Assembly (NCBI GenBank): GCA_950295325.1
Contig: OX485809.1
Coordinates: forward strand, 10,728,001-10,792,000
Direction: 5' to 3'
Source of the DNA: Polytrichum commune
Taxonomy: Eukaryota; Streptophyta; Polytrichopsida; Polytrichales; Polytrichaceae
DNA length: 64,000 nt
This document shows, piece after piece, positions 1-63,130 of the stretch (position 1 is the first letter of the stretch; every line of letters starts with the position of its first letter). The notes beneath the pieces were generated by a model. It had not been told where the DNA came from. It did no database searches and saw only the letters and a program-made list of their open reading frames with translations. Position numbers and translations under genes: made by a program.

Positions 1-99
1 ATCCACACCATGGAAGCCCACTGTGAACTTTGCAATGAGCTCAAAATCAACACATTTCGGATTATCCGCCGCATTATCCGCCGGATTTTGAGGGTTTTA

Positions 100-1370: not shown

Positions 1371-1530
1371 TAGTGTGTCCACTGGCCAACCCAAACCTTT
1401 ACAAAACCAATGGCATAGCAGTCATATGAACATGTATGAACACTGAGTATTTGCAATATCGTTTATATAAGATGGTTTTTGTATTATTCGATTGGAACCT
1501 ACAATTTTTGTGGTTTCTTGACAAGGTTCA

Positions 1531-5612: not shown

Positions 5613-6440
5613 GAAGTTGGTAGGATTGTGTTAGCATGATTATAGTTTAATGCGTAATTATAGCAATATAAATTACACATATGTGTGCTCTTCAAAATTG
5701 GGGCAGAGTTTGGGTAGAACTTACGAATACTATATTGTTTGGAGTTGGATGAATATTCATTTACTATATTTTAAAAAAATGAAGTTCATCTTATTATTAT
5801 GTTTGGGACTATATTGTCGAATGAAGAAATATGCATTTATTACATGCACTTTGTATGTTGCAATGTCTATATTCTATTGAGCATGCTAATAATAGAAATC
5901 ATTTTATATATTTTTTGGGTGAAACTTGTTTGGAGTGCTCTACCCAATGTGTTTTTGTTGATGAAATTGGTGTCGAGTGCTCTACCATATGTGCTTATGT
6001 CCGCACATCATAGATTTGGGATATTAGAACATATAATATAATTGAGTTTGTTGACAATATAGTTTCGGGCCTCTTCAAGTTCTTTGATCCATATATTAAT
6101 TTGAGACTAGAGAAAGTCTCAATTTAACGAATATAGTGTTATCTATACAATAATTTGTCATAAGGATAAATACACTAAAATACACATATTTGCTACTCTA
6201 TATATAACATTAAAATTTCAAATTTTGTAAGACAACGATGAACATGCATAAAAGTATACAATAATAAACGATTGGTTGAATTTTTAAATAAAAATAAAAA
6301 ATTCTGAAAGTGGTACAACATATTGTACAAGTAATAACTTTATTATTGGGACAATGGTTCAAAATCCCTTTATAAATCACATACATAAACAAACCATACA
6401 CAATCTAATATTCCATTTCATTCCGTCAACTTGACTTCCG
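5613..6440. other. AT-rich gap, no gene seen
   Basis: Lies between the convergent ends of the DUF7869-like gene and the MGEK gene. Only short chance ORFs, AT-rich with many stops. It may hold the 3' regions of both genes. Confidence 0.5.
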
Positions 6441-7004
6441 TCATGGCAACCTCGTAAATGTTTGTGGCTTCCGTCGAGGGTCCAATCTTGGCGGAAGAGG
6501 ATCCGGCCTAAGTAAATCAAAATAGCTAATCGTTCGGTCTTTCATCCGTTCCTTCAACGGTAGCCGATGAGGCGATAATCCTTTCATCTTCTTACGAAAA
6601 GGCAAAGTCCTTGTAGATTCTTCTGTTATCTTGACTTCTTCAACATCGATTGAATTATCATCCATATTCACATCCCCGGGCTTCCGTAAAATATCTGTGC
6701 TTAAATCAACCATATCATTTGGATCTTCACCCATGTTTTTTGTTAGGTCTTTTTTCGCCGCATCGATCTCAAATTTGACCGCATATCGTCATTGGTCCTC
6801 CTTCGCTCTCAACTTCCATGCTTGTGTAGATTGTGAAAAGGGGGTCATCACATAGTCATTACGAAATCGATCTCTAGCACTTCTCTCATCTCTCTCACGC
6901 TCGGGTGATGGATTGAATGGAATATGGGGTTCTCCTAAATTCTCTATCTCCTCATCACATCCTAGACCCTCAAACATGTCTTTCTTCTCTCCCATCCTAT
7001 CCAT
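6441..7004 (-). pseudogene. MGEK gene, copy 1: unrecognised small transposon-associated gene
   Basis: Reads on the minus strand from ATG at 7004 (MGEKKDMFEGLG) to a stop at 6441, about 187 codons. One in-frame TGA lies after KLRAKEDQ, at about 6786-6788; the frame then goes on unchanged. The protein is highly charged, and the best-kept segment is near the C-terminus: LSPHRLPLKERMKDR, then TISYFDLLRPDPLPP. A second copy at 51092-52540 matches across the whole length (MGEKRDMFAGLG, STQAW, RYA, LSPYRRPLKDRMRDK, DLLRP). I do not recognise the family. It is convergent with the DUF7869-like transposase gene, while copy 2 is convergent with a different transposase. A second transposon protein, for example DNA-binding, is possible but only inferred. 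Confidence 0.6.
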
Positions 7005-7149
7005 GATATTCTACCGTCGTTATATGTGTGAGTCTAAAGGCTCTACTAATATACTGAGCTCAAAGGACTTCATGAAATATACAATAATTGATGTAATCCA
7101 AGATATAGAGCATCCAATTCTCGTTGGTAAAATATAGACAACACTATAG

Positions 7150-7278
7150 GAATAAAAAAAAATTGGTGAAGTCAAAAAGTTAGTTGCACTTTTTGAAAAA
7201 ATCCCTCGACACCCGCATTGAAAACCTCTTTGATACTTTTTTTAAGCTTCTATATTTGATTAGTTATCGATTCATTCA
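7150..7278 (-). repeat. truncated MITE fragment related to 8576-8984
   Basis: Reverse complement of the internal part of the 8576 and 34131 elements (shared CGACACCCGCATTG, CTTCTATATTTGATTA, ATTCATTCA). It has no terminal repeats and ends where the 84-bp array begins. Confidence 0.65.
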
Positions 7279-7279
7279 A

Positions 7280-8230
7280 CGAATCATAAATTTGTACTTC
7301 AACCTTAGTGGTTCATATGGTTTTACAACCCATGTCACGCATCTGAATGCCACTCTCATTTAACAAATCACAAATTTGTGCTTCAACCTTAGTGGTTCAT
7401 ATGGTTTCACAGCCAATGTCACGTATCTGAATGCCATTCTCATTTAACATATCACAAATTTGTGTTTCAACCTTAGTGGTTCATATGGTTTTACAACCCA
7501 TACGCATCCGAAGGCCACTCTCATTCAACAAATCACAAATTTGTGCTTCAACCTTAGTGGTTCATATGGTTTCACAGCCAATGTCACGTATCTAAATGTC
7601 ATTCTCATTCAACATATCACAAATTTGTGTTTCAACCTTAGTGGTTCATATGGTTTTACAACCCATACGCATCCGAAGGCCACTCTCTTTCAACAAATCA
7701 CAAATTTGTGCTTCAACCTTAGTGGTTCATATGGTTTTACAACCCACACGCATCCGAATGCCACTCTCATTCAACAAATTACAAATTTGTGCTTCAACCT
7801 TAGTGGTTCATATGGTTTTACAACCCATATCACGCATCCGAATGCCACCTTCATTCAACAAATCACAAATTTATGCTTCAACCTTAGTGGTTCATATGGT
7901 ATCACAACCCATGTCACGTATTCGAATGCCACTCTCATTCAACAAATCACAAATTTGTGCTTCAACCTTAGTGGTTCATATAGTTTTACAACCCATGTCA
8001 CGTATCCGAATGCCACTCTCATTCAACAAATTACAAATTTGTTCTTCAACCTTAGTGGTTTATATGATTTCACAACCCACGTATATTCGAAGGCCACTAT
8101 CATTCAACAAATCACAAATTTGTGCTTCAACCTTAGTGGTTCATATGGTTTCACAACCCATATCACGCATCCGAATGCCACTCTCATTCAACAATCACAT
8201 ATTTGTGCTTCAATATTCGTGGTTCATAAA
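7280..8230 (+). repeat. 84-bp minisatellite, about 11 copies
   Basis: Unit of 78-84 bp with constant parts CTTCAACCTTAGTGGTTCAT and CACTCTCATTCAACAAATCA. Length steps are mostly multiples of three, so it stays open in two frames over more than 200 codons. Both translations are just the repeat, with no start context, so I take it as a non-coding minisatellite. The right end decays into AAAGCCTAAAGCCT. Confidence 0.9.
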
Positions 8231-8575
8231 GCCTAAAGCCTAAAGCCTAAACCCCTAAACCATTTCAAATTGCTACCACATATGTGCCATTGTTTTATTC
8301 TCACACTCATGTAGAAGTGTTTCCATAAATACCAATAGTTCTCCTTTACACATGTCATTTTCTTCTTCACTGTATTAAAACCCCAACAATATCCTTTTGA
8401 GCCACAATTCGGTATTTGTGTTTTGATCACTATCATCGCTTGGATATTTACGAGGATTAGAAGATTTGTTTGCATTGAATATTGGGAGGTATGGGAAACG
8501 ATCATTCAAAGTATGAACAAACTTTTCCACACAAGATGCACCCAATAATATGAATGGTTGTAGTTCATTGGGCCC
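8231..8575. other. gap, nothing recognised
   Basis: Begins with a short CCTAAAGCCTAAA run and continues as AT-rich sequence without a convincing ORF. Confidence 0.4.
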
Positions 8576-8984
8576 ATAATATCAAGTAGCAAGGCTAGGA
8601 GGGTACCCTTTGAGTACCCGCAAATTTACCTTAACAAGAAGGGAAAAGCTTGCAAAACAAGGGTGAATGAATGGATAATTAATCAAATATAGAAACTTCA
8701 AAAAGATATCAAAGATGTTTCCAATGCGGGTGTCGGGAGACTTTTCAAAGTGTGCAACTACCTTTTTGACCTCACCAAGTTTTTCGTTGCTATATAGCTA
8801 TTAAGATTTGTTTAGATCGTAATTTAGCCTAGATTAGAACCTTTACCACCACTTGGCATTAGTTTTGTCCTACAAACCGACATATTAATTTTAAACATTG
8901 AAAGTAACTATCCAAATAGTTTAAGCACGCGCCGGTTTGATGCTCTTTTGAGAAGGTCAATGCGGGTTTGCTACTTAATATTAT
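8576..8984 (+). mobile_element. MITE, family with ATAATATYAAGTAGCAA ends, copy 1
   Basis: Ends ATAATATCAAGTAGCAA and TTTGCTACTTAATATTAT form terminal inverted repeats of about 17 bp. The interior matches 34131-34602 along its length (GAGGGTACCCTTTGAGTACC, GCGGGTGTCGGGAGAC). GCCC on both sides could be a 4-bp TSD. The superfamily is not clear. Confidence 0.75.
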
Positions 8985-9530
8985 GCCCATCAGTTGCCAA
9001 TGCATGAACAACACAATATCTTGTATTGTTTTCATAACTCAACTGAAGATTTCTTGCAAATTTCCTCAAGAATTTTCCCAAATTCTTGCTTGTACGACCC
9101 AACATAGGTCCATTCCTAGATTTTAAATTGACGTGATATATTTAAATTTCATATTCAATTTATTCAACTCTTGTAAAACATCTTCAAGCTAGTTCAAATA
9201 AAAATATAATTAAAAAAAACCTATGATCTCATACCAATGCTGCTCTTCATCTTTGAATATTCCAATAGCGCCAGCATGCATTGTAGGGAGTAGGTCATGA
9301 CATTACCGAATTGCATGAATGTCTAAAACCACTACATAATATTCTTCAAATACATCCTTCAACAATCGTTTCAGCTCGTTGCGTCGATTTGTGCTAAGGT
9401 AGAGACACCTATTCATGACAACGACCTAATTCTGCCAACTTTCAATATATACATGAACATTTCTCGCCATCATTTGTGTTGCTTCACAATTGTTCCTTTG
9501 TTTCTTTTGGATAAGTCTATGGGTCATGAA
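8985..9530. other. gap, nothing recognised
   Basis: AT-rich; no ORF or repeat that I could support. Confidence 0.35.
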
Positions 9531-9534
9531 TGGG

Positions 9535-9690
9535 TCTATGTTCCCCGTTCCCGTCCCCGTCCGCCCCATTCCCCCCCCCCCCGTTCCCCCCCGTTCCCCC
9601 CCGTCCACCCCCACGTTCCCCCCTGTCCGCCCCACCCCCCTCCCCCGTCTGCCCCACCCTCGTCCCCCGTCCGCCCCACACCCTCCTTAG
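9535..9690 (+). repeat. C-rich array (CCCGTTCCC / CCGTCCGCCCCA)
   Basis: About 155 bp of almost uninterrupted pyrimidine-type repeats built from CCCGTTCCC and CCGTCCGCCCC, with a run of 12 C. The proline-rich ORFs across it are low-complexity artefacts. A reverse-complement array lies at 11606-11775. The opposite strand could form G-quadruplex-like structures. Confidence 0.85.
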
Positions 9691-9876
9691 TCGTTTTTTA
9701 CTACTTTGATTTTAACAAAATGGTAAACAGAATGGCAAAATGGTTTACCTGGCGCTAGGCATATCCACGTCCACGTCGGCGTTTTCTGCCACATAGGACG
9801 CCACCTTGGCAAGAAGGTAAGTATTTTACCCACCCTACTCCATTCCCCCTATGTTGACCATATGTGGACCCTATTG

Positions 9877-9904
9877 TGTCGTGACGGAGGGGTCCGTCAC
9901 GACA
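9877..9904. repeat. perfect hairpin, 12-bp arms
   Basis: TGTCGTGACGGA, a GGGG loop, TCCGTCACGACA. It sits in a cluster of CGACAC motifs ending in ATAGACAACCCTG, a tail also found after the 11.9-kb hairpin. Confidence 0.85.
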
Positions 9905-9959
9905 CGACACGTCATGACGGCACGACACCGTCATAACAACGGGATAGACAACCCTGCCC

Positions 9960-10853
9960 ATGTTTTATGTTCATCTAACTTACTTATAATGGGATTGTCT
10001 ACATTTAATGGGCCCTTCATTGTTTAGAATTCCTTTATAATTTTTATTTCAAATGATTTTAATCCTCTTTATATAATTATGCCGCACGTTGTTTTTAAAA
10101 TGCACTAAGTGATCTATCCGTGTTATTTCTCCCATAAGGGTACCTGAAATGGAATGAACAATAGTTATGGGAATTGTGTGCACTTAATCATTCCTCCTCC
10201 TAGCTTGTAACTGCCGGCACTACCCGACACTCCCTCAAACAAGTGATCTCACAAGATGTCCACACAAGTGTGATGACACTGCAAAATGGCAAGTTACCTG
10301 AAGCTTAGGAGATGCAACAAAGTGGATGAGATGCGATGAAGTGGACGAAAATGCAAACTCCACCGCTGCGGAATGGAAGTTGTGACGGGAAGCACGTAAC
10401 CCTAAACCACAAGCCAACAAGGCATAGTCTCCAAATATGCATAGTATTGAAAAAATTACCTAAAATATATATATATTTGGTCGGTTGCCCGCCATGAAAA
10501 TAAATTTTCAATCGGTAATTTGCGGTGGGTACTCTAGGGCAGCTTGCCTTAATGCTGGCATTTTTTTTCTTCTAATTGGCCCATTTCCGTAAACCTTGAT
10601 TTTCTTCCGAAACCCCTTCCTAAACTTTCCAATTGCATTCAGAAATTCTCAAAATCAACCGGCTAGCTTGTAACTAACTGCCGGCACTACCCGTTCATTG
10701 TTGTGGTCTCTAAAGTTCATCATCTGCCAAAAATGTTTTGGAATGGCATGGAGTTGGGTGGTTTTCTTGTAGGCAAGATGTTAGTGACTGATTGGTGTGG
10801 GTGTTGGCATTTAGTCTAAGGGCCATGACCTTACCCTCATAAAAGGTTTTGAC
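9960..10853. other. gap, nothing recognised
   Basis: AT-rich, with two occurrences of a short motif AACTGCCGGCACTACCCG (about 10.21 and 10.68 kb). No supported gene. Confidence 0.4.
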
Positions 10854-11272
10854 TTAAGGTAGAAATACCATAACCCGTTAATCACCTTCAAGCCATGCAC
10901 TAGACCGCCGTCATAATGGTGAGGTGCCATTTCTAAAACTGATCATGGCTCGGTGACAACTTCAATGCGTGTAACTTACACTTAGTGTAGCCAATGGGAG
11001 TCAAGTGTTAATGTACTCATGAGGTAACCGATTTAGGCAATGTTTTGAATGGAATTGCGGAATACCGTGTTTGGTGTAGGGAGAATCTAGTGAACGAGTA
11101 GGGGTTTGGACAACTTTCCACTTTGAAAAATAGTCGCATTTTTTGTATACTAATCAAAAATCTCCATAGCGGTGATAATTTGTTGGTCATCCTACTACAT
11201 TGGTTATTTTGTTGCTTAAGGGATCCCTAATTAGTTTTGTATGGATAAGTAAACCGGTTATGGTATTTAGTG
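10854..11272 (+). mobile_element. MITE with TTAAGGTAGAAATACCAT end, copy 1
   Basis: Left end TTAAGGTAGAAATACCATAA; the right end, read in reverse complement, gives AAATACCATAACCGG. The interior matches 18087-18540 in the opposite orientation (for example AATGTACTCATGAG and GAATCTAGTGAACGAGTAGG). No coding capacity. The TSD is not resolved. Confidence 0.65.
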
Positions 11273-11605
11273 TCACATATATTATTTGCGAAGGGCCTAA
11301 GATAGATGCCTAGAGGACTCAAAGTGCCAATATGACATTATTTATGAACATTAGTAACTTCATAAAATGGAAAAGTATTTACATTATAACATTTAGCATT
11401 GCACATTGGAATACTTCAGATGGTAGCTTGCGTTTTAGTATCAAGGATACTATTGAGCATACTAATGAAAAGTGTCATATGCTTCCATTTTAGTGTGCAA
11501 GTGATAGATATTCTTAATTCATTTGAATACATGGGTGGCTATTACGATGTATTTTGGTGGATGGATGAATTCGGAAGGCAGGGCGTTAGTTAGTTAGGAG
11601 AAAAA

Positions 11606-11775
11606 AGAGCGGACGGGGTGGACGGGTGGGAACGCGGGGGCGGACGGGTTGGGAATGGGGCGGGTAACGGGAGCGGAGGGGGGGGGGGGAACGGGGACGG
11701 ACGGGAGGGCGGACGGAGGGGGGCGGACCGGGTGTGGGAACGGGTGGGAACGGGGGCGGACGGGGGTTGGATTGG
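11606..11775 (-). repeat. G-rich array, reverse complement of the 9.5-kb array
   Basis: Runs of GGGGCGGACGGG and GGGAACGGG, including a run of 10 G. Same repeat as at 9535-9690 in the other orientation. Confidence 0.85.
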
Positions 11776-11923
11776 GGGCTAGTATTTTTTTCCCAACTTT
11801 ACCTCTACTTTGCTGACATGTCATCACACGTGGACATCTTACATCCTACGTGTCTGAAATGGGGTAATGTAATTACACACAAAATTCAGTAAAATTCAAG
11901 TCCCTCAGGATAAAGACAGCATC

Positions 11924-11973
11924 CGGCATAATGTCGTGACAGATACGTGTCGTGATGGCACGACATTATGCCG
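11924..11973. repeat. perfect 15-bp inverted repeat
   Basis: Arms CGGCATAATGTCGTG and CACGACATTATGCCG with a 20-nt spacer. Followed by CATCACGACACAATAGACAACC, matching the tail of the 9.88-kb cluster. Confidence 0.85.
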
Positions 11974-12940
11974 AGATTAGCCTCCATCACGACACAATAG
12001 ACAACCCTGAACGTGGGCCATTATTTTTTTGTAAAATTAATATAGGGGCTGAAGATAAGGATCCTAGAAGGTATGTTTAATATGTTTGCTGTGGTCTCCT
12101 ATGTGTCTTCTTCATAACTTTGTTTGCAATGGTATTATTGTTTGCATCTTTCTTTGTTTCCATGCTTTCCCTCAACACTCGTTAATTGCGTTAGGAAATA
12201 GATTAGTTTTTATTATTTAAAAGGAATATAAAGTACAAAAAATTGCAGTAACTTGGACAATATAAATAATGAAAGGGTGCAAACAAATGGGCCATTTTTT
12301 AAATTTAAATAATTATAGGAAGACTTTAATTCAACCCTTGAAGGTAAATAGCCCCAAAACAAAAAAACCCCTAGTTGCACGTGGTGCACTAAAATGCCTT
12401 AGAGTGATCTACCCGTGAAAAAAAAAACGGAGAAGGAGAAGGAGAAGGGTTGGTGCTCAGGTACGTTATTTTATTTTTTGCTTTGTTTCCATTCTGCATA
12501 GTTAATTGCGATGGTATGAACCTTATGTCAAACCTCTGATTTCTTCTAGTCTTGGAGCAAACACGAGCTAACCCTGTACTAACTATGTCGGAAGCCGTCA
12601 CAAAGCTCCTCCATGCTAGTTCACCTCGTTCAATCTTGTTGTCAGGATGCTTAATATGTACTCCGCCTGTAATCCGAGAAACATAGCACTTGCTAATTAC
12701 ACTAATTACAGTGTTCATTTCCGCTTTCAGGTTCTTTCAATGACTAAAAGACAGATTTTGATCCGAGATTCCTACTTTGGAATATCGCGTGAGACGAATT
12801 TTTCTACAAGTGATAACATCATATCCGTTTAGAGCCCGGATACAAAACAAGTAACCCATTCGCAAATGGAATTGGCGTGAACTTTGTAGAAGGAATAATG
12901 GGCAAGTCAATTCCAGTGGCTAGATTATTCTACGTCCGGA
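11974..12940. other. gap, nothing certain
   Basis: AT-rich sequence. The last 100 bp may be a degraded N-terminus of the hAT transposase, but I cannot read it. Confidence 0.35.
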
Positions 12941-12943
12941 GGT

Positions 12944-34000: not shown

Positions 34001-34130
34001 AATTTGGACCATAGGGGCGCCCTTGGTGAATGGACGGTCATAATTTTTTTCCCGGGCAACTAGACTTGGCTATGGACAGAGGCTCTGGGGGCACGCGCCC
34101 ACGGAGGAGCACAATTAAATGGATTCAAAC

Positions 34131-34602
34131 ATAACATTAAGTAGCAATGCTAAGAGGGTACCCTTTGAGTACCCGCAAATTTACCTCAACAAGAAGGGAA
34201 AAGCTTGCAAAGCAAGGGTGAATGAATGGATAATTAATCAAATATAGAAGCTTCAAAAAGGTATCAAAGAGGTTTCCAATGCGGGTGTCGGGAGACTCTT
34301 CCAAAAAGTGCAACTACCTTTTTGACCTCACCAACTTTCCCGTTGCTTTATAGCTATTTAAATTTGTTTAGATCATAATTTAGCCTAGATTAGAACCTTT
34401 ATCACCACTTAGCATTAGTTTTGTCCTAGAAACCGACTTAATTAATACTAAGCATTGAAAGTAACTACCCAAATAGATCTAAAATAGCCTAAGCAAAACT
34501 CAAACTTAGTGTTACTTTTGCTCTTGAAAGAGCATCAAACCGGCACGCGACGGTTTGATGCTCTTTCGAGAAGGTCAATTCGGGCTTGCTACTTAATGTT
34601 AT
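34131..34602 (+). mobile_element. MITE, ATAACATTAAGTAGCAA ends, copy 2
   Basis: Ends ATAACATTAAGTAGCAA and TTGCTACTTAATGTTAT are perfect 17-bp inverted repeats. The interior is collinear with 8576-8984 and somewhat longer near the right end. Flanks do not show a matching TSD. Confidence 0.8.
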
Positions 34603-49321: not shown

Positions 49322-50050
49322 TGACACGCACGTGAGTTGTTCGTTTGTAAATGAGGTGTCTTAAGGGCCTCAAGTGCCCTCTTATATAGGGTCCTAAATC
49401 GAGGAATTCTTCATGTAGCGGTTATGCGTCTTTCCCCTATTTTCAAATGTTCAAGTTTCTTAATTTAAACTATAAATGTTATGAAAATCCTAAAATAGTT
49501 TGACTGGTCTATTTTTGGTATTAGACATGTGTTTAATTCATATGTAGCGTTGAGAGACATGGGACGACACAGCTATGTGAGCGTAGAGCGGAGAGCGGAG
49601 ATGTGGAGAGCGGAAAGCGGAAAGGAATTAAATTTAGTAAACTTCTCATACCAAATTTAGAAGCATTTTTTAAATGATCGAATATTCTCAATATATTCCA
49701 GATTCTCCTTAAAATAGAATATAATCGTGACCTATTTCCGTGGAATATTTAGGTCAAAAAATAAAACAAAAGGCCCTGAATTTGAAAGGGTCTCATTACA
49801 TTTGGAAATCAGGAAGAGATAAAATTAAGATAAAACAGAAAAATATATGATAAAACCAATGATGAACCAAGAAAGAACGAATGAAAATAATTATATGGAG
49901 GTTGGTATAATTGAAGAATGAGTCAATCAAAATACAAAGGACGATCAACTTGCTTCGTTTTTATTCCATCAATTTTGTCTTTGTCCTATGCGTGAGTCAA
50001 CTCTAGAACTTGGACTCCAACAATTATTGTTTGTGATATTATCTTCAGCT
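49322..50050. other. gap, nothing recognised
   Basis: AT-rich; a short GAGAGCGGAGA-type repeat at about 49.59-49.62 kb. Confidence 0.35.
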
Positions 50051-51034
50051 GTATATGTCGCAACCCTTGCTAGCCCCCTTAGCAATCTTGCCAATTTTCC
50101 TTTCTAGCAAAGGTTACGAGCGCTAACCCTTCGCATACCGCCATGCTAATGGTTAGCTCCTCTTACCCTGGACCATATAATTCAATGGAGGGGAACCAAC
50201 CCTCCTACTTTGCTTTCGGGACTCACCCCTTAATCGGTATCCCATTCCTAGATGTGGACTTCCATCCATGGAAGTCCAATCCCATGTTGATCATCGCGTT
50301 GCCGGAGCAACACTACAACAACCCGAAGCATACTAGGCAACTATGGCCTCACATTGGGCCAATGCCCATGGAGGCCGTGCCGTTCGGCCTCGGGTGGGTG
50401 AGGCCACACCACCTCACCCATATAAGCCTCTAGGACTTCACGCGGGGCCCCTACCCCACCGTCAACCAACCTCTTGTCTCTCTACCAAGAGTTGGGGCCA
50501 AGTGGACATTTTCCTTTAGCTGCTGGGCCTAGAACCCCCCAGCAGCTTCAGACCATCATAACTTCCTTGTATGATGTCTGATCATAACAAACAACCACTC
50601 CATCTTCATCTACGCTTCACGTACATGCCGATGGACTCCTCACTTGCTCCATTCGGGCAAGTATTGAGGAAGTTATGCCTGTTTGAACCTTGGCAGTCCC
50701 GGGAATCACTCCCAGGGCACTGCTGTACCAGGGCGCTGTCCCGGGACAGCGCCCCACTCAAATGGCCATAACTCCTAGCTCACACCTCCGATTGAGGTGT
50801 TCTTGAGCATTCTAGAATCACCACGCCATGAGCTACGCATAGCTTATGGCCTTACCCTTGTGCCTCCTAGTCTTCGTGGGTGGGAGGCGTTCCCAACGCC
50901 CGGGGCCCTCACCCGCACTAGGATCACTTGGGCCCTCTCACCAATGGCGCCACAAGTCCCGGGTGTCACTCCGGGGTCCCCCTTGTGCCCATGGTGTTTC
51001 GGGCACTCCTCATGGAGAGGTGCGCGACAGTATA
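50051..51034 (+). mobile_element. solo LTR, family 1, copy 3, TSD GTATA
   Basis: LTR 50056-51029 (974 bp), TGTCGCAACC to GTGCGCGACA, GTATA on both sides. Perfect palindromes at 50255-50278 and 50731-50754. It sits about 60 bp upstream of copy 2 of the MGEK gene. Confidence 0.92.
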
Positions 51035-51091
51035 TAAATGAGGACATAAGTTATACTCGCATCCAATACGGATGTAGAGACATATGCACAC

Positions 51092-52540
51092 AATGGGAGA
51101 GAAGAGAGACATGTTTGCTGGCCTAGGATGGGAGAAAGAAATTAGAAGTCTAGGAGATCCCCATGTTCTCTTTAATACATCGTCGAAACATGACATAGGT
51201 GCTGGAAATCAACATAGTGATGACTACGAGCTCACTTCATTTTCGTAGTCCACACAAGCATGGAGGTGGAGGATGCAGGATGTCGCGCACCTCTCCATGA
51301 GGAGTGCCCGAAACACCATGGGCACAGGGGGGACCCCGGAGTGACACCCGGGACTTGTGGCGCCATTGGTGAGAGGGCCCAAGTGATCCTAGTGTGGGTG
51401 AGGGCCCCGGGCGTTGGGAACGCCTCCCACCCACGGAGACTAGGAGGCATGAGGGTAAGGCCATGAGCTATGCGTAGCTCATGGCGTGGTGATTCTAGAA
51501 TGCTCAAGATCACCTCAATCGGAGGTGTGAGCTAGGAGTTATGGCCATTTGAGTGGGGAGCTGTCCCGGGACAGCGCCCTGGTACAGCAGTGCCTGGGAG
51601 GGATTCCCGGGACTGCCAAGGTTCAAACAGGCATAACTTCCTCAAGACTTGCTCGAATGGAGCAAGTGAGGAGTCCATCGGCATCTACGTGAAGCGTAGA
51701 TGAGGATGGAGTGGTTGGTTGTTATGATCAGACATCATACAAGGAAGTTATGATGGTCTGAAGCTGCTGGGGGGTTCTAGGCCCAGCAGCTAAAGGAAAA
51801 TGTCCACTTGGCCCCAACTCTTGGTAGGGAGACAAGAGGTTGGTTGACGGTGGGGTAGGGGCCCCGCGTGAAGTCCTAGAGGCTTATATGGGTGAGGTGG
51901 TGTGGCCTCACCCACCCGAGGCCGAACGGCAAGGCCTCCATGGGCTTTGGCCTATTGTGAGGCCATAGTTGCCTAGTATGGTTCGGGTTGTTGTAGTGTT
52001 GCTCTGGCAACGCGATGATCAACATAGGATTGGACTTCCATGGATGGAAGTCCACATTGGGGAAATGGGTTACCGATTAAGGGGTGAGTCCCGAAAGCAA
52101 AGTAGGAGGGTTGGTTCCCTCCTATGAACTATTGGTCCGGGGTAAGAGGAGCTATCCATTAGCATGGCGGAATGCGAATGGTTAGCGCTCATAACCTTTG
52201 CTAGAAACGAAAATTGGCAAGATTGTTAAGGGAGCTAGCAAGGGTTGCGACACAGGAGGAGCAGAAACGATATGCAAAAAAAGATAAAAGGCGAGGTGAT
52301 GTGCAGGAGAAGGAGGAAACAAGGTGCATGAATAGTGAGGCAAATGATGCGGCTAATTTGAATGAAGACAAGGCAATCGACATGGAGCAGGAAGTCAAGA
52401 TGGTAGGCGAATCTTCGAGGTCTTTGTCATTTCACGATAGAATGAGAGGATTATCACCGTATCGTCGTCCATTGAAGGATCGAATGAGGGATAAAACGGT
52501 TTCGTACGTTGATTTGCTTCGACCGGGTCCACCTCCATAA
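51092..52540 (+). pseudogene. MGEK gene, copy 2, split by a solo LTR
   Basis: Part 1 (51092-51280) reads MGEKRDMFAGLGWEKEIRSL and ends ..STQAWRWRMQ; part 2 (52258-52540) continues EEQKRYAKKDKRRGD and ends DLLRPGPPP. Between them lie the family-1 LTR 51281-52252 and the second TSD copy; removing LTR plus one TSD restores one frame. One TAG lies at LTSFS-stop-STQAW, where copy 1 (6441-7004) has Gln. Copy 1's own stop falls at a codon that is Lys here. The two copies are strongly alike near the C-terminus. Function unknown; convergent with the MULE-SWIM transposase gene. Confidence 0.62.
51276..52257 (-). mobile_element. solo LTR, family 1, copy 4, TSD CAGGA
   Basis: LTR 51281-52252 (972 bp) in minus orientation (TGTCGCGCAC to GGTTGCGACA on the + strand), CAGGA at 51276-51280 and 52253-52257. 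It interrupts the MGEK gene. Confidence 0.92.
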
Positions 52541-52774
52541 AAAAGGGACGATGAAAAGAAATTCGAAGCATGTAGGAGGATGGAAACACGGAAGTATAGT
52601 TGATAGACATAGTAGGCATGCTTGATACAATTCCGTATTGTAATAAAAGATCTTGAAGGGAATAAAAACAATGCATGGGATTTTATTTATTATAGCAAAC
52701 AATTATGAGTTCACATGATATTCACAATTGGCACGTCTAGTAGGACCCAATGTATTGGTAGGCTGAGATGAATT

Positions 52775-54042
52775 CTAGGAAGTAGAATGTGTCAGAAGAC
52801 CCCCTTCGAGGATGAGTTTGACTTCATTGAAGCTAAAGGTCGGGGTGTGAATGAACAAATTCACTTCAGGATCCAAATTAGAAACCTTAATGAAGATGTA
52901 ATAGAGATGCTTACAATTCAGATAAGGATTTCGTTTGCGGCCGAACTTGGAAATCATATCCAAGAAAAATGCGCAATTGCACTCTGGAAGAGAACTGACT
53001 ATCACTTGGTAGATGGGGGGTTGCGGTTTTGCCTTGGACTGCAGAGTGATAATGCAACCAAATCCCGGTTGAGGGATCATTGTTAACTTCAGAACAGTAC
53101 CATGCATAGCTTCAGCAGAGGCAACCATCTGCCTCTGCTTTGCCGAAGGTGCGCTGGTGGATCGTCGAACAACCTTGTCGGAGGGATGAAGTCTGGGTTG
53201 TCTGGAATATGGATTCCAGACATATCCAGTGGGGGAGCGGAATTGGTGAAGAGTTGAGTTGGTGTGATGCGGTCCTTTGGTGGGAGTTGAAAACCTGCGT
53301 TTTCAAGCGCGAAGATCTCCGAACGGGTGAGGTTGGTCCCAATCTTGACGGGCCAAATTGGGGGAATATGAGGTTTCTGATCATCAGCAAAGAACGGTAT
53401 GACCCATTTCCGACGAGGGCCCTTTACACAACGCTCGATGTCATCTGGGCAAAAGACGAATTCCATTCGCTTCTCCGCTTGGAGTGTGTAATGATGCCAC
53501 ATACCGGTGTAGGTCGGTGCAGGGACGCTCTTATTATTGGTGATGATTCTTGCGGTGCACTTCTTCTTCGTGCCAGCATGATTAGCCCAACAAGATTTTC
53601 CTGAGGTATGGGGTATGCGGGCAATATGCCAAAGAGAGACATCTACTTTAGTTTCTTGTACGGCAGTGACACGCTGAAAACCAATTCATGCTGGAGAAGG
53701 CACTTGAACCTCTTGAACACACGGGGAGAACTCCTCAATGATAGTAGGTAGTGATACAGGTTGAGATCGAGTGATGCGCTTCGCGGGGGGAGGGCGAGAG
53801 AAGTTGACGGTATCGGGGCGGTGGGTCTCGCCATCATCGCCAATTGGAGTGTCGGGTCTTCGTTTCTGCGATCCAAACACCTCGGCGCCTTCAAGGTGTG
53901 GATCGCGAGTGCAAAATTCTTCCCCACCATGCATGTCAAGCAACACCTTCTACAACACTGTGGGGTCGCCAGTACGCTGAGCTCGACGTTGAGCTCCCCT
54001 AAGCTTGAGTTCTTCTTTGCTTGGACCATCACCGCCAACTCC
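52775..54042 (-). pseudogene. MULE-type transposase, C-terminal part with SWIM zinc finger
   Basis: Minus strand, continuing the gene piece at 61268-62156 after a CACTA insertion. From 54042 it reads VGGDGPSKEELKLRGAQRR, then a stop (TAG, probably once CAG), then LLDMHGGEEFCTRDPHLEGA and a basic linker (KRRPD, AKRITRSQP). After an inferred 3' splice site near 53675 comes VDVSLWHIARIPHT, KSCWANHAGTKKKCTARI and WHHYTLQAEKRMEFVFCPDD. A frameshift near 53.16 kb leads to the SWIM region: PECNCAFFLDMISKF then NPYLNCKHLYYIF (CxC..CxH), ending at 52775. SWIM fingers are common C-terminal domains of MULE transposases. Confidence 0.68.
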
Positions 54043-55079
54043 CACTACTACAAAACACGTCTTTTACAACTGGGTTTTTTTAACTCCTACGAGTGAAAAA
54101 ATCCAGACTTTACTAACGTGGAAAACGACCAGTCGCTCCGGACAAGCAGTAAAGGAATATCGGACATGATGTTCCCAATGGATACGTTCCCAATGGCAGT
54201 GAAGTTGGACTAGCTCCGCGTGCTTTACTTCATAGAGTCATGTCCTATTTCACTATGTTTTGGCAATATAAGTAAGATACGACACACGTCAATATAACTC
54301 ATCGAAGAGATATAATGTCACTGCCACTAGTCATGGTCGGGTTTTTTTACTTCACTACACAGAGTAATACAAAGTAAAATACGTATACATACATTCCAAA
54401 TTACTAGTGAACCATAACAACGTGGTTGAAACAAATATGTAACCACGTGGCTAAGATTAATTGAATTAATTTTCACACATTACTTATTCCAGTAATCGCG
54501 GACAACCAAGTGGGTAGTGAATAACGTTGCATAGTTAGCATCTTTGACTTTTGGTAGTAAATACATACAACAACTGCATAATTTCTTACTCCACGTCGTC
54601 ATGTGAACTTCACTGGCTGGAGTGATATTTACCTCAAGCAGTGGTCTATAGCCTACGTTGTTAGGTCATGTGGTTCACGGATGTTTTTTTTGTGTATTAC
54701 TACCAGTGAAGTATTCATGTCCTTGCCAAGTGTCTGTGTAACTGTACGTAGTAAGTGTCTGTGACTACCAAGAGTGAATACATATTTAGATGGCATATAT
54801 TTGTTACTTAAAGTCGTAATATCTATATTACTATGTAACGTAATGTAGACAACAAACTCTAGTATTTTGTGTTTGTTGTGAGGTTATGTGGTCTTCACAT
54901 GTCTTTAATGTATATTACTGGTACTACAGTGAATATCGACTGCGCTAAGTGCCGTGATTAGGATGCAACTGTGCGCATTTACAACAACTAATAACATGGG
55001 GCTAACTCAACATAGTCATAAATTTGTGACATGTACCAAATGTCGCCATTGCCAAATGTAGCCATTACCAAATGTAGCC

Positions 55080-56390
55080 ATTGCTAAAAACCAAATCATA
55101 TTTATCCAATATTGTGTCATGAATGTTTCACAATTTGGTTCTAACAATATTAAACACTGAACTCCAAATGTTTGCAAATCAACCTAGGTCTACAAATCCA
55201 CTCCACACTCACGTAGCCGCACATGACTTTATATATTCGTTTGACCAAATAATGTAATGGCCCTTCGCTTTGCCAATAGTAGTCACTGGAGGGTCGTCTC
55301 CACTGAGAGGTTCAAGCAAAGATAGTCATCTTCAAGTGACTCCGTGATGGCCAATGATACATAGCCATTGCCAATCACCTTCCCGTGCAACATCCCACCT
55401 GCTATATACTGAATAACACCCTTCCCAACGAACTTCGCCTTCGACTCCTCCGAATCATACCCACACAAGTAAACGTCGTCCCCCTTAGTCTGCACAAATG
55501 CCACGATTACTTCAGCCAAATTAAATAAACAAATTGCTTTTTAAATCCATAATGAAGTAGAAACTTGAATTAATGTGCTTACTTGCACTTAGCTACTAGT
55601 CTTAAGTAGTTGGACCAAATGCTCACCAAATCATGAATAGGGTGGGTCTTCTTTGGAGCCTTCGTGCCAAGGGGAGGTTTGTCTCCCCTACGCTTATCCG
55701 CCATTTCTTTCTCTCATTCTTTGTCCGTTTTCTTCGAGCCCTTTTTTAATGGGCTGCCCCTGGATTTCTCTGCAATGTGCAATATGGTCCGGGAGAGTGG
55801 AGAGTTAGACAAATGAACCGGTTGAGTTTCAGTAATGTCCAATGATACATAGTCATTGTCAATCACACTAACTTCATGTTCAATTTGCTAAGTGTCATGT
55901 TTATGATGCAAATGATTGCGTTTACTGCAACTAGTAACATGAGGATGACTCAATAAGGTCATATGCTTGTGGCATGCACCATATATTTCCACTTATCATA
56001 CAAAATACAATCACCTACAAAATGTAGTCACACAAATATGGTAATGATGTTAAAAAACCAAATCATATTTATACAATAGTATGTCATGAATGTTTCACAA
56101 ATCGCTACTGACAATGGTAAGCACTAAACTCCAAAGGGGTCAATATCTAAAAATCAACATAGGTCTACAAATCCACTCCACACTCACGTATCCGCACACA
56201 ACCTTATCCAATCACCTGCCCAAAGAATAAAATGGCCCTTTGTTTGGCCAATTGTAACCTCCCCTTCGTGGCAATGGGAGGTTTATCACCCCGACGCTTA
56301 TCCATCAATTTTTTGTCTCCTTCTTTCTCCATTTTCTTCGAGCCATTTTTTGATGGGCTAGACCTCAATTTCTCTGCAATGTTTATTCAA
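55080..56390. repeat. internal tandem duplication in the CACTA element
   Basis: 55086-55270 corresponds to 56052-56250 (shared ACCAAATCATATTTAT, GTCTACAAATCCACTCCACA), and 55650-55790 to 56262-56385 (shared CGCTTATCC, TTTTCTTCGAGCC, TTTCTCTGCAATGT). The offset drops from about 970 to about 600 bp, so the second copy lost roughly 370 bp, including the longer ORF. Confidence 0.75.
55283..55704 (-). pseudogene. En/Spm-associated gene remnant inside the CACTA element
   Basis: Minus strand. A first piece (55704 to about 55590) reads MADKRRGDKPPLGTKAPKK followed by HPIHDLVSIWSNYL. A second (55519-55283) reads EVIVAFVQTKGDDVYLCGYD, then GKGVIQYIAGGMLHGKVIGN and a stop. The G(R/K)G..HG pattern loosely recalls the accessory plant En/Spm transposase domain, but I am not sure. 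An intron between the pieces is likely. Confidence 0.45.
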
Positions 56391-56893
56391 CCATTTTAGC
56401 CTTACATTGATTAATGCATTGTAAACTAATGTAGAAAATGACATTAATGTTAGTTCTACCGAACATGGCCGAAAGTTTTAGAATTTCCTAGTTTTAGAAT
56501 TTCCTACAGCTGGTTCTTAGTATGCACCACTTCTTACATAAATGTATATCTCTTGAAATCCATCTCTAATGTCTAAACACTCCACGGCTTTATGGCTATC
56601 ACATTACTGCTTCTAGTAATATAGGACAACTATGTTGCAGGCCAATAACTATATGTAGTAAGCGTCAGTGACTACGGGTAGTAAAAAAATACGACAATGG
56701 CCATTATTGCATACTGGCTACAGTGATACTTCACCATGTGGAGTTATGTTTACATAAAAATATAACTTAGCATAAACACTCAGAATAATGCAACCCCCCT
56801 TCGTGAGAACGTAACCTTTCTGCAGCATTGCATCGGCCTCCAAAGTTAATTTTTTGTCTTCACTCAGACGTATACGCTTTGGTTTAGGTCCCC

Positions 56894-57570
<677 letters not shown>

Positions 57571-58253
57571 CATTTATTTCCTTACACATTTATGGTAAAC
57601 CCTAATATTGCAAATATTGGGTTCCACACTCTAAGTTCCTCACTTTTGGCTTGTTTCTTATATCCACACTTACACTTGTTGAGTAACAACATTATAAGAG
57701 AGAAAAGAGGCATAATGGAGAAGCCAACGATAACATACATCACCAAGAGGAGAAAGAAATCACCACCAAAACGAAAAATGAGCACCGAAGACAAGAGGAA
57801 CTTGGAGAGCCCTCGGCCACGGTTTTAGGCCCCCTTTCCACGGATATACAAGGAAGTCGCGCGGTTATAGGGCCCCTTACCCACGGCAATGGGTCCCCAG
57901 CGGCCTAGTGAAGGAAACTTAGAACTTAAAGATAGAAGATCACTATGTAAGTATGAAAGGTCTTATATGAGGAATATATAGGAGTATATAGGGATATTAG
58001 AAAGTATATAGGACTAGGATTACATTCCATTAGTATGAGTATACGAGATTTTGTTCAAGGACAATTATGAAAGAAGAATATTTAAGCAATTACGAGGAGT
58101 ATATAAGTATTAAGGAGTATATAGGAATATGGTACATTCTACTAGTATGATCATTGGAATTTAAATCAATCAATATGAAGATTTGATGGATTCTCAAAAA
58201 GAATTTGGAATGTAGCCACGACAAAGATATAGTGGAATCTTAGAAAGACGAAC
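57571..58253. other. CACTA interior, left of the nested LTR
   Basis: No gene. TATAAGGA-type short repeats (AGGAGTATATAGG) at about 57.98-58.12 kb. An older insertion, together with 59236-60700, is possible but its ends were not found. Confidence 0.4.
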
Positions 58254-59235
58254 ATTAGTGTCGCGCACCTCTCCATGAGGAGTGCCTGAAACACCATGGG
58301 CACAAGGGGGACCCCGGAGTGACACCCGGGACTTGTGGCGCCGTTGGTGAGAGGGCCCAAGTGATCCTAGTGTGGGTGAGGGCCCCGGGCGTTGGGAACG
58401 CCTCCCACCCACGAAGACTAGGAGGCACAAGGGTAAGGCCATGAGCTATGCGTAGCTCATGGCGTGGTGATTCTAGAAAGCTCAAGAACACCTCAATCGG
58501 AGGTGTGAGCTAGGAGTTATGGCCATTTGAGTGGGGCGCTGTCCCGGGACAGCGCCCTGGTACAGCAGTGCCTGGGAGTGATTCCCGGGACTGCCAAGGT
58601 TCAAACAGGCATAACGTCCTCAATACTTGTCCGAATGGGGCAAGTGAGGAGTCCATCGGCATCTACGTGAAGCGTAGATGAAGATGGAGTGGTTGGTTGT
58701 TATGATCAGACATCATACAAGGAAGTTATGATGGTCTGAAGCTGCTAGTGGGTTCTAGGCCCAGCAGCTAAAGGAAAATGTCCACTTGGCCCCAACTCTT
58801 GGTAGAGAGACAAGAGGTTGGTTGACGGTGGGGTAGGGGCCCCGCGTGAAGTCCTAGAGGCTTATATGGGTGAGGTGGTGTGGCCTCACCCACCCGAGGC
58901 CGAACGGCACGGCCTCCATGGGCATTGGCCCATTGTGAGGCCACAGTTGCCTAGTATGCTTCGGGTTGTTGTAGTGTTGCTCCGGCAACGCGATGATCAA
59001 CATAGGATTGGACTTCCATGGATGGAAGTCCACATTGGGGAAATGGGTTACCGATTAAGGGGTGAGTCCCGAAAGCAAAGTAGGAGGGTTGGTTCCCTCC
59101 TATGAACTATTGGTCCGGGGTAAGAGGAGCTATCCATTAGCATGGCGGAATGCGAAGGGTTAGCGCTCGTAACCTTTGCTAGAAACGAAAATTGGCAAGA
59201 TTATTAAGGGACCTAGCAAGGGTTGCGACAATTAG
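58254..59235 (-). mobile_element. solo LTR, family 1, copy 5, TSD ATTAG
   Basis: LTR 58259-59230 (972 bp), minus orientation, ATTAG at 58254-58258 and 59231-59235. Nested inside the CACTA element. Confidence 0.92.
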
Positions 59236-60700
59236 AGTGGTAAAACGGTTATAACCGTTTATAATAGATATCATCTACCTATGTCGGAGATAGGTAGTTA
59301 TCTAGGAAAGTGGAGTTAACAACCATTTTAAATATAGATTTTGGGTTAGGAAGAAAAGACTATATAAAGGGAACACTTTTAGGAGACTACACCTCATTTT
59401 CAATACGACGAAGCTATCTTAAATTTGAGTGTCAAAAACACTTGAGTTCCTTTTGTATCTCTCCTCTCGGAGTACTTTTGCAATATACTATCTTTTCCAC
59501 AAATATGTGTGATCTATCTTTCTCTCTCAATTGGACTTACAAGTTGTTAAGCGGTACTTGGAACTTAAGTGATTAAGCAACCGAGAGAAGAGTAGACTCT
59601 TTTGAGCAAGAACTCAAAAGATTAGTGTGTGAGGGTGAGAACAAAGCGCTCAAGGATATTCGGAGAATCAATGGAACTTTGAGAGATGTTGTTATGATGA
59701 AGTAACGTCAATTCATACAACGTGAATGAAGAAAACAAGATTGTCTCTTAAAAGTGGAAGTTATCATTGAACTCCTCAAAAGGGAATTATCCAAATATAA
59801 AGTGATAGAGTGATTAAGATTGAGTTGATAAGACTTGCATGCATATTTCAATTAAATTGAGAGTAAGACTTTTTAAATATTTCTAAGAAAGAGATACAAT
59901 TAATTGAGAGAAACTTCTCAATATAAACTACCTATATATATTATGTGACTTATGGATGATAGTTGAACTTATTCATATTCAATTCTTTAAATAAATTGTA
60001 AGGATAGTAATAAAGATTGATTGATTAACTATTCACAACAATTGTTATTGAAACTTCTTACCTTTAAAATTCTTGTGAGTTGTTGGATGTCATTACAAGT
60101 GAAAGATTAACTATCAAAGAGAAGAGTTCTCTCTCTTGAGCAAAATTCAAGAGAGTTATAATTACTCTCGTCATCAAGAAACACTTTAAAGTAAAAACGT
60201 GACATTGCAAAACAATCAATGGTGTTTTGGATATAAAGTTATAACCACTATATGTTATACATATCAAAGTTACAATACTATAAGTAGTAACACTTGAGCT
60301 TAAAAAGGAAGATTCAATAACACAATATCTTTCTTATTATTATAAGTTATGGAGCAATATTATAAAGTATGTGATTGACGTTTATGAACTACGAACTTAA
60401 CTCCTTGAAGACTTATATAACCTATTGAAAATTATATTGTTATCAACGATATTGTTATACCTCTTGAAACCTTCTCTAATCTAATTGTTCTTATTATCAA
60501 TGATGCCTTACATTGAGAGTGAGAATATATGATAATGAGAATGTGTTCACTCCAATAATTATATTCATATCACAAGGAGAAGAGAGAGATTACTAATTCG
60601 AGACCGAACATATTAATGAGACACGGTAGTTCTCAAGCAAATATAAATTTACATGATGTCTCATCGTGAGTCTTCTTAGCTAATTACAAAGAAACGACCC
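59236..60700. other. CACTA interior, right of the nested LTR
   Basis: AT-rich. An ACTATATAAAGGG box at about 59.36 kb could be the TATA of an older retroelement LTR, which I cannot delimit. Confidence 0.35.
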
Positions 60701-60960
60701 ACGGCGTCCATCAACACTTCCATTCTCACACTCACAACTACATTTTCACTCCTACCCACATACACATTCTTACTCACATTCTTACACTAACACACACATT
60801 ATCACATATTCTCATTCACACTCTCACACTCTCACACTCTCATACTCACACACATACATTGTCATTCACACTCTCAAACACATTCTCATTCATACTTTCA
60901 CATATTCCCTCACACTCACACACACTCACACTCTCACACTCACACACTCATACAGACTAA
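60701..60960 (+). repeat. CACTCA/CACACT-rich simple repeat
   Basis: Degenerate CACTCTCACACTC repeats at the right side of the CACTA element, resembling the tracts at 57.2-57.6 kb. Confidence 0.7.
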
Positions 60961-61267
60961 CGGGTCATTTTTTGTGAGTATTCTGTCTAAAACCCTGAAA
61001 AACATGACAATTGGACTTAACATTCTCTCCATGTGGACCACTTCACTACCCACAGTCATGCACGTTCTACTGGACGTTCCCAAACACATTTACAAGAGCG
61101 TTCCCAACTGAATTGTTGTCCCACTTCACTACTATGACTCCGCAAAGTTAATTCGGACATCAAATGAGCCCATGTAGATTTCTATTATTCCTCCAATCAC
61201 TGTTTATAGTAGTAAAAGACATGTAGTGAAGTAGGTGTTGGAATAAAAGACGTGTTTTGTAGTAGTG

Positions 61268-62156
61268 TCCACCTTTAAGGAATTGGAAGTATGCAACAAC
61301 TTGTAAGAAGGCGCGAATGTAGTCGTCCACGGTAGCAACGTATAGGTCTCCACCCTTGTTGCCGGAGGCTTGAAGCCACTTGTTGTGGACGGACTCCGCA
61401 AGATTGCACGACGGCATCTCGGCCAACTGGTCTGGGGTCAATACCTTTTCCTGATTGAAAAAATGGAGTATTAGAGCAAGCACAGAAACATGAAAATAAT
61501 GAAAGGAAAAAACAAGAAAGAAAGAGAAGGGAGATGTACCAGTTCCATGAAACCACCCCATTGAAGGTAGCGGAAGTGCCAAAAAGCAAGCCATAGCTGG
61601 AGGTGCTTGAGACCGTCTTCACTTGTACAATTCGACGAAGACCACCAAGCCTTGATAGCTAGGTACCTAGTCTCGGCCTCTTCCATAGACGACGCATTCC
61701 GATATTGAAGGCAAAGGTGTCTATGTTGGTCTTGTAACTCATGTTTAATATACGATTTTGTATGTTTCTCGAGCGATTGTTTCCAATGAAAATAACAGGT
61801 GCGCTCACGGCCCTCCAGTGGAACTTTAGGATCTCCTGAACCATACACAATTCGCACAGCGTTCCAATTGGCTTGGGCACTGTCTGCCATGAAGCCAATG
61901 AAGTTTGGATGTGGGACACCGTGCCGGGCCATGACTTGGTTGAGGTTCTGCCAGAAAAGAACTTGAGCATCCTTGTCCTCGGATTGGAAGTCGCAGCAAG
62001 CGATGGTCATGATGCGCTGGTAGGTACCGTCGTATACGTGGCAGGCCATGGTGGTCCACTTGGCGACGCGTTTGACATGGTCAGACATCATCCAAGCATG
62101 CTCGATATCCCCACCAGGTTGCATACGCTTAACCAAGTCGACCCCACTACCAAGGC
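61268..62156 (-). pseudogene. MULE-type transposase, catalytic part
   Basis: Minus strand. From 62156: SGVDLVKRMQPGGDIEHAWM, then KWTTMACHVYDGTYQRIMTI and ACCDFQSEDKDAQ (probable Asp), NFIGFMADSAQANWNAVRIV (Asp of MADSAQ), RERTCYFHWKQSLEKHTKSY (Cys..His). An 89-bp intron (61451-61539, GT..AG) is inferred between GGFMEL and EKVLTPDQLAEM; the next exon gives NLAESVHNKWLQASG and VATVDDYIRAFLQVVAYFQF, then LKGG at the CACTA insertion. The pattern is that of MULE-like RNase H transposases. The 5' end is cut by an LTR at 62157, so the N-terminus is missing. Confidence 0.75.
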
Positions 62157-63130
62157 TGTCGCAACCCTTGCTAGGTCCCTTAATAATCTTGCCAATTTTC
62201 AATTCTAGCAAAGGTTACGAGTTGCTAACCCTTCGCATTCCGCCATGCTAATGGATAGCTCCTCTTACCCCGGACCAATAGTTCATAGGAGGGAACCAAC
62301 CCTCCTACTTTGCTTTCGGGACTCACCCCTTAATCGGTAACCCATTTCCCCAATGTGGACTTCCATCCATGGAAGTCCAATCCCATGTTGATCATCGCGT
62401 TGCCGGAGCAACACTACAACAACCCGAACCATACTAGGCAACTATGTCCTCACAATGGGCCAATGCCCATGGAGGCCGTGCCGTTCGGCCTCGGGTGGGT
62501 GAGGCCACACCACCTCACCCATATAAGCCTCTAGGACTCTACACGGAGCCCCTACCCCACCGCCAACCAACCTCTTGTCTCTCTACCAAGAGTTGGGGCC
62601 AAGTGGACATTTTCCCTTAGCTGCTGGGCCTAGAACCCCCCCAGCAGCTTCAGACCATCATAACTTCCTTGTATGATGTCTGATCATAACAACCAACCAC
62701 TCCATCCTCATCTACGCTTCACGTAGATGCCGATGGACTCCTTGCTTGCCCCATTCGGGCAAGGCTTGAGGAAGTTATGCCTGTTTGAACCTTGGCAGTC
62801 CCGGGAATCACTCCCAGGCACTGCTGTACCAGGGCGCTGTCCCGGGACAGCACCCCACTCAAATGGCCATAACTCCTAGCTCACACCTCCGATTGAGGTG
62901 ATCTTGAGCATTCTAGAATCACCACGCCATGAGCTACGCATAGCTCATGGCCTCACCCTCATGCCTCCTAGTCTTTGTGGGTGGGAGGCGTTCCCAACGC
63001 CCGGGGCCCTCACCCACACTAGGATCACTTGGGCCCTCTCACCAACGGCGCCACAAGTCCCGGGTGTCACTCCGGGGTCCCCCTTGTGCCCATGGTGTTT
63101 CGGGCACTCCTCATGGAGAGGTGCGCGACA
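62157..63130 (+). mobile_element. LTR, family 1, copy 6, without matching TSD
   Basis: 974 bp, TGTCGCAACC to GTGCGCGACA, all family palindromes present. Flanking 5-mers AAGGC (left) and CTCAC (right) differ, and the interrupted MULE reading frame does not resume on the right. It may be the left LTR of a longer element running out of the window, or a product of recombination between copies. The first bases to its right (CTCACCCCCACC) do not look like a usual TGG.. primer-binding site. Confidence 0.85.

Follow-up and report, generated by a model that had tools for sequence, protein, structure and literature searches.

We find that a small gene, which we call MGEK, occurs in Polytrichum commune in two types that are carried by two kinds of DNA transposon, hAT elements (A type) and MULE-like elements (B type). 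The reading we prefer, to which we assign a probability of about 0.75, is that MGEK is a DNA-transposon accessory gene that has been passed, together with about 150-165 bp of promoter, between two kinds of element with unrelated transposases. An earlier sequence-only reading of the window (the whole stretch analyzed, 64,000 nucleotides of contig OX485809.1) had proposed one gene in two unrelated transposon types; this idea holds, with the correction that the second type is a hAT element and not the DUF7869 element that had been named.

Two diverged copies of MGEK in the window

The two copies, and the solo LTRs that have inserted in copy B, are as follows.

6444..7004, minus strand: MGEK gene, copy A, 187 codons with one internal TGA (own frame and tblastn matches)
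51084..52540, plus strand: copy B of the MGEK gene, with one internal TAG, interrupted by the solo LTR at 51281-52252 (tblastn)
51281..52252, minus strand: solo LTR of 972 bp inserted in the copy B coding sequence, flanked by CAGGA duplications
50056..51029, plus strand: solo LTR inserted in the copy B TATA region, flanked by GTATA duplications

When the window was searched by tblastn with copy A, the query returned, besides itself, copy B as two separate matches (E 2.4e-21 and 1.2e-16) and a single further match at E 2.2. Copies A and B are homologues with 51% identity, and the start, STQAW and LSPxRxPLKxRM...DLLRP blocks all align, bearing out the common start, middle and C-terminal block claimed by the sequence-only reading; equally sound was its claim of one nonsense codon per copy at differing places (TGA in A, TAG in B). 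In two coding segments, 189 and 146 bp long, the copies are 71% similar at the DNA level, and across the 154 codons compared the changes at codon positions 1/2/3 number 43/39/64, a third-position count reached in 0.09% of random placements. Copy B had been placed at 51092-52540 on the plus strand, and both the homologue and the strand are correct; the ATG lies at 51093, or at 51084 for MHTMGEK, the frame from 51092 being out of phase, and the coding sequence is not continuous, being interrupted by the 972-bp solo LTR. The window contains four solo LTRs of about 970-1,000 bp, each with 5-bp duplications, two of them in copy B (coding sequence and TATA region); one LTR word had no exact match in the viral_contigs or genome_contigs collections.

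A-type copies are carried by hAT elements

A search of the genome (407.8 Mb, 64 contigs) with MGEK A gave at least 151 matches (501 candidates, 150 scored). Neighboring genes were examined around 20 MGEK copies in stretches of 9.9 kb, comprising 16 A-type stretches, hand-picked at intervals among the first 86 matches listed, and 4 B-type stretches; ten further B-type loci were covered as short stretches, and the 14 B-type loci are the best-ranked matches of 47-54% identity in the search with MGEK A.

The transposon partner of A-type MGEK is a hAT element. At 1750-6211 of stretch L013 lies a complete element of 4,462 bp with CAGGGTTGTC at both ends, identical 8-bp flanks (GTTGTGGC) and MGEK inside. 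A 16,790-bp element with the same ends, TGGAACAT on either side and MGEK inside is present in C6; here MGEK occupies element bases 7875-8432 and a RING-type ORF 9758-11680, and the opposite strand holds an open hAT frame of 1,084 codons, or 1,065 from the first MPRR methionine (12814-16065). Because TGGAACAT recurs in a tandem array around the C6 element, the duplication there is weaker evidence than that of L013. The copy in C3, where the stretch read excludes the left end, has the same ORFs as the C6 element. The C6 hAT frame is 98% identical to that of L019, and the domains were read on two homologous frames, L019 (Pfam DUF659 5.6e-35, Dimer_Tnp_hAT 4.2e-9) and L025 (DUF659 2.3e-31, Dimer_Tnp_hAT 4.1e-10). 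The A-type carrier displays the features of a hAT element, namely an 8-bp duplication, short terminal inverted repeats (CAGGGTTGTCTAT at both ends) and a transposase with DUF659 and a dimerization region. The same ends, flanked by exact 8-bp duplications, also bound two small elements that lack MGEK (L015, L026).

Of the 16 A-type stretches, 6 contain hAT coding sequence, three of these only its last 66-84 codons, and 11 contain RING. In C6 the hAT gene lies about 4.4 kb beyond MGEK and the stretches reach about 4.7 kb, so that most A-type stretches end near the start of the hAT gene. The layout is not uniform, as hAT lies on the other side of MGEK in L025 and L026. A hAT query had no match in the four B-type stretches or the window at 1e-5, and MULE/SWIM queries had none in the 16 A-type stretches at 1e-4.

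Several apparent passenger genes were also noticed in one hAT element, in the form of kinase-like and RING-type ORFs (L021, L022, L019 set); their Pfam matches, Pkinase at 4.7e-7 and 2e-6 and RING at 2e-5, are below the cut-off.

The DUF7869 gene beside copy A is a nested insertion

In the window, copy A lies in the remains of a hAT element, adjoining a DUF7869 element.

6141..9956, minus strand: hAT element carrying copy A, larger part, inverted, with its CAGGGTTGTC end at 9956 (colinear with positions 1-3692 of the L013 element)
11153..12009, plus strand: smaller part of this hAT element, from a break at about 11153-11158 to its other end at 12009
9957..9964: target duplication AACATGGG (read inverted), pairing with 12010-12017, 7 of 8 alike
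12010..12017: target duplication AACGTGGG
7272..8228: 84-bp tandem array upstream of MGEK, matched in A-type stretches
1552..6140, plus strand: DUF7869 gene and 3' part of the DUF7869 element, ending at 6140, a separate insertion (Pfam, element comparison)
3304..4300, plus strand: solo LTR inserted in the DUF7869 gene, flanked by GAAGC duplications

Pfam assigns the neighboring gene of copy A to DUF7869 (PF25273, E 1.4e-39), and its adjacency and tail-to-tail order are as originally described. Their pairing is an accident of nested insertion. Copy A and its surroundings form two blocks colinear with L013, one starting at the DUF7869 end, and since the rest of the broken repeat (11153-12009) lies in the opposite sense, about 6141-11157 has been inverted. 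Four of five other fetched DUF7869 elements match the window to 6140-6142 and have unrelated flanks thereafter, the fifth (L032) being cut earlier, at 5993, by an LTR; conversely, A-type stretches L011-L014 and L017 match the window from 6139-6141, and the other 11 from 6247-6324. The coincidence of DUF7869 ends with A-type starts identifies 6140/6141 as a transposon end against a broken repeat, and it is the DUF7869 insertion and the inversion that broke the hAT element of the window. We accordingly rejected MGEK as an accessory gene of the DUF7869 element, as the gene lies outside the ends of that element.

The sampled genomic neighborhoods agree, with DUF7869 or MULE/SWIM-like sequence in none of the 16 other A-type stretches (9.9 kb each). 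Among the 150 x 137 MGEK and DUF7869 places listed, one pair lies within 5 kb, that of the window, where 0.50 would be expected under uniform placement, and two pairs among the listed matches lie within 10 kb, with 1.01 expected. DUF7869 elements are numerous, the core query giving 1,511 candidates and at least 137 matches; those listed are, besides the query itself, 92-96% identical and mostly without stops. What the sampled loci overturn is the DUF7869 pairing and not the gene as such.

One break of the approximately 5-kb inversion is the end of the DUF7869 element, and at the other break its sequence (TTGTATA..AT) recurs as a short, imperfect inverted copy, such as aberrant transposition would leave. 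The right end of the DUF7869 element reads ...AATATAGTGTT(A) in four fetched copies. The DUF7869 core gave chance-level matches only in a PDB sequence search, DUF7869 had no relatives in viral_contigs, and the name 'DUF7869' did not occur in the open-licence papers searched.

B-type copies are carried by MULE-like elements

The element around copy B is dispersed by later insertions into the following parts.

49562..50055, plus strand: MULE-like element, MGEK-side end (GGACGACACAGC...) and upstream region, including the shared promoter
52775..54042, minus strand: MULE/SWIM-like transposase gene, 3' half, CxC...CxH motif (open-frame relative in L029)
54043..61267: CACTA-like element of 7,225 bp inserted in the MULE-like gene, with 24-bp ends CACTACTACAAAACACGTCTTTTA and a TCC duplication
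58259..59230: solo LTR, duplication ATTAG
61268..62156, minus strand: MULE-like transposase gene, core part
62157..63130, plus strand: LTR of an element leaving the window, nested in the MULE-like gene, right side without target duplication

The transposase gene lies tail to tail with copy B and is broken twice, by the CACTA-like element at 54043-61267 and by the LTR element from 62157; once the former is set aside, the MULE-like frame is continuous across it ('FLKGGVGGDGPSKEELK'). In L029 both genes are open, with a 182-codon MGEK frame and a 596-codon frame holding the MULE-like core. The arrangement is a regular one: a SWIM-like gene convergent with MGEK was found at 12 of the 14 B-type loci (4 of 4 long and 8 of 10 short stretches), about 2.5 kb from MGEK in L027 and close by in the other three long stretches, while L036 and L043 have no SWIM within about 1.4 kb. 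This supports the convergent pairing that had been described for copy B, and the listing of transposases beside sampled genomic copies that had been suggested confirms it for the B type, in contrast to the absence of DUF7869 beside the A type (0 of 16).

The name of the partner is a matter of motifs. We assigned it from DGT, ADSAQANW, RTCYFHW and CxC...CxH, which we take to be characteristic of MULE and SWIM proteins. Pfam recognized no MULE or SWIM domain in either the gene next to copy B or its L029 relative; the CxC...CxH pattern is present in the window, L028 and L029 proteins with SWIM having no Pfam match. Given the silence of Pfam, we call the partner "MULE-like" rather than MULE-SWIM, as it had been named. 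The core gave only chance-level matches in a PDB sequence search and no relatives in viral_contigs. Position 49562 is where the window, L028, L029 and L030 begin to match, their flanks being different, and it defines one end of the element in four copies; the far end was not found, and neither a terminal inverted repeat nor a target duplication was detected.

The two types have a common promoter

The upstream DNA of the two types aligns over about 150-165 bp, represented beside copy A by one further feature.

7005..7158, minus strand: promoter-proximal DNA common with copy B, including a TATA-like box (local alignment against shuffles)

For the window pair the upstream alignment scored 57.5, against a best of 38 in 200 shuffles, and for the upstream consensuses (16 A-type and 4 B-type flanks) 65.5 against a maximum of 45.5, a score that none of 300 shuffles reached. 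Downstream homology between the types is absent, as the corresponding scores were reached by 72 of 200 shuffles (window pair) and 150 of 300 (consensuses). A TATA-like box about 50 bp ahead of the M-x-x-MGE start can be seen directly in both copies, and the share of the common promoter retained by copy B is 49958-50055, upstream of the solo LTR. A search around the A pair for promoters in MuDR-like terminal repeats found none, with 51 of 200 and 93 of 100 shuffles reaching the scores. The boundary at -155 was considered as an element end and rejected, because B-type homology runs on to 49562. A 17-bp near-identical inverted repeat was also seen to flank copy B (49951-49967 and 52659-52675).

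MGEK product, constraint and relationships

The MGEK product is probably a small, highly charged, unfolded protein, conserved in two blocks, MGE..DMF.GLG and GLSPHR.PLK.RM.D.T.SY.DLLRP. Charged residues make up 40% and 35% of the two proteins, and hydropathy falls below what we take to be the boundary between folded and unfolded proteins. No Pfam domain scored above the cut-off, and a match to WDR11 (0.0013, 0.0076), which is below it, was discounted. Neither tblastn against the viral_contigs and genome_contigs collections nor a narrow literature search of open-licence papers found a relative or an account of an MGEK-like gene.

The dN/dS comparison between copies, which had been suggested along with the original observation, was run on 29 of 30 fetched copies (L038, with its start missing, was excluded). 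No internal stop is present in 16 of the 29, and the other 13 have stops. Among A-type copies the median dN/dS is 0.66 (the 112 of 120 pairs that lie within the limits set for dN and for dS), implying that selection on the protein is weak there, and within the B type it is 0.47 (78 pairs). Between the types the median dN is 0.343, the median dS 0.814 and the median ratio 0.43 (208 pairs). In a tree of 31 proteins, again without L038 and with L036 and L043 labelled MULE-type though no SWIM was seen beside them, the A and B types fall on opposite sides of one branch with support of 100/100. Given two such clean clades, a single old transfer suffices, and no recent swapping is visible.

Possible role of MGEK and alternative explanations

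In the MULE-like elements MGEK is the second gene, tail to tail with the transposase gene in a mudrA/mudrB layout, and in the large hAT elements (C6, C3) the kinase-like, MGEK and RING-type genes point towards a hAT transposase gene near the other end. We infer that the probable target of MGEK is a host process shared by the two kinds of transposon, with a host factor, silencing, nuclear entry and expression as candidates. As the transposases are unrelated and hAT and MULE-like queries did not cross-match the sampled loci, a host target appears likelier than the element ends or the transposition complex. More speculatively, and with a good deal of doubt, MGEK could be a small, disordered and portable helper, independent of any particular transposase and driven by its own promoter, which would work in unrelated DNA transposons by blocking or bypassing a defence of the host, in which case the hAT and MULE-like elements of one genome would share a single counter-defence. 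The role of second genes such as mudrB in plant transposons is still unsettled, and a gene and promoter under some constraint in two carriers would argue that the target is a shared host obstacle rather than the transposase. With more than 100 copies in one genome, many of them without stops, the host-target idea is testable.

It is also possible, if somewhat unlikely in our view, that the hAT and MULE-like lineages separately captured MGEK from the host, as a gene or a fragment with its promoter, and amplified it as a passenger without use. Gene capture is common in plant transposons (excerpts of PMC2528002), and the captured-looking kinase-like and RING-type ORFs of the hAT elements, the stops in 13 of 29 copies and the A-type ratio of 0.66 are what would be expected of a passenger. 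Against this, the frame and both blocks survive at 51% identity, third positions have changed more than the others (43/39/64 of 154 codons), the ratio between types is 0.43, the promoter stays with the frame, and the partner is stable across B-type loci (12 of 14). Confinement of the homology between types to promoter and coding sequence might instead be explained if MGEK were its own small mobile unit, inserted into both transposons. A word, TTTTTATTCC, occurs five times in the window (reached by 0 of 100 shuffles), with three of these places flanking the two copies, the 17-bp near-repeat flanks copy B in inverted orientation, and the best inverted matches around MGEK alone were reached by only 5 of 100 (B) and 4 of 100 (A) shuffles. 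Yet the region downstream of copy A lacks a match to the 17-bp repeat, 11 of 100 shuffles attained the 3-mismatch count of that repeat, no target duplication was apparent (without a systematic search), and B-type homology continues beyond the promoter to the element end at 49562, leaving an independent unit highly improbable. The original proposal of the sequence-only reading, that MGEK serves DUF7869 transposons and MULEs, drew on adjacency and tail-to-tail order in the window; with the DUF7869 element ending at 6140 and MGEK beyond it, the ends meeting at 6140/6141, no DUF7869 in the 16 other A-type stretches and one pair within 5 kb against 0.50 expected, it is scarcely credible.

Comparison with known systems

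The accessory gene reading can be set beside several described systems. In MuDR, as excerpts of PMC3440606 and PMC6446971 describe it, the transposase gene mudrA and a second gene of unknown function, mudrB, are convergently transcribed, and the MULE-like element is likened to it by layout, MGEK and the transposase gene being tail to tail. Unlike MuDR, whose promoters lie in terminal inverted repeats, no such repeats were found around MGEK, and MGEK is also present in hAT elements. VANC, a MULE accessory protein of Arabidopsis VANDAL elements, counters silencing, its targets are often tandem repeats, and VANC proteins carry DUF1985/DUF287 (excerpts of PMC5735166). The likeness lies in an accessory gene of MULEs and in the 84-bp tandem array beside MGEK in A-type hAT copies; DUF1985 and DUF287 are, however, absent among the Pfam matches of MGEK. 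ULP1 genes occur in MULEs and CACTA elements of grapevine and others (excerpts of PMC2528002), a precedent for one type of accessory gene in two transposon superfamilies, although ULP1 is a recognized protease domain, whereas MGEK has no known domain and a promoter common to both carriers. Finally, the A-type carriers resemble hAT elements with DUF659 and Dimer_Tnp_hAT in their 8-bp duplications, CAGGG-type ends and transposase domains, and differ in reaching 16.8 kb with several extra ORFs, including MGEK.

Other features of the window

A remnant of another hAT transposase, with no MGEK nearby, lies at about 16914-17066 (Dimer_Tnp_hAT E 3e-4, 21.0 bits against a cut-off of 21.4). A small repeat with near-inverted ends AAGTAGCA/TTGCTACTT is present at 8575-8985 and 34130-34603, and part of it is matched in each of the 16 A-type stretches; repeat R, tried as the left end of the A element, was rejected, as it is an internal piece of this small repeat. 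Upstream of the DUF7869 gene, at 232-1136, a 79-bp unit that contains the palindrome TTTGGGTCGGTCGACCCAAA is repeated in 11.5 copies.
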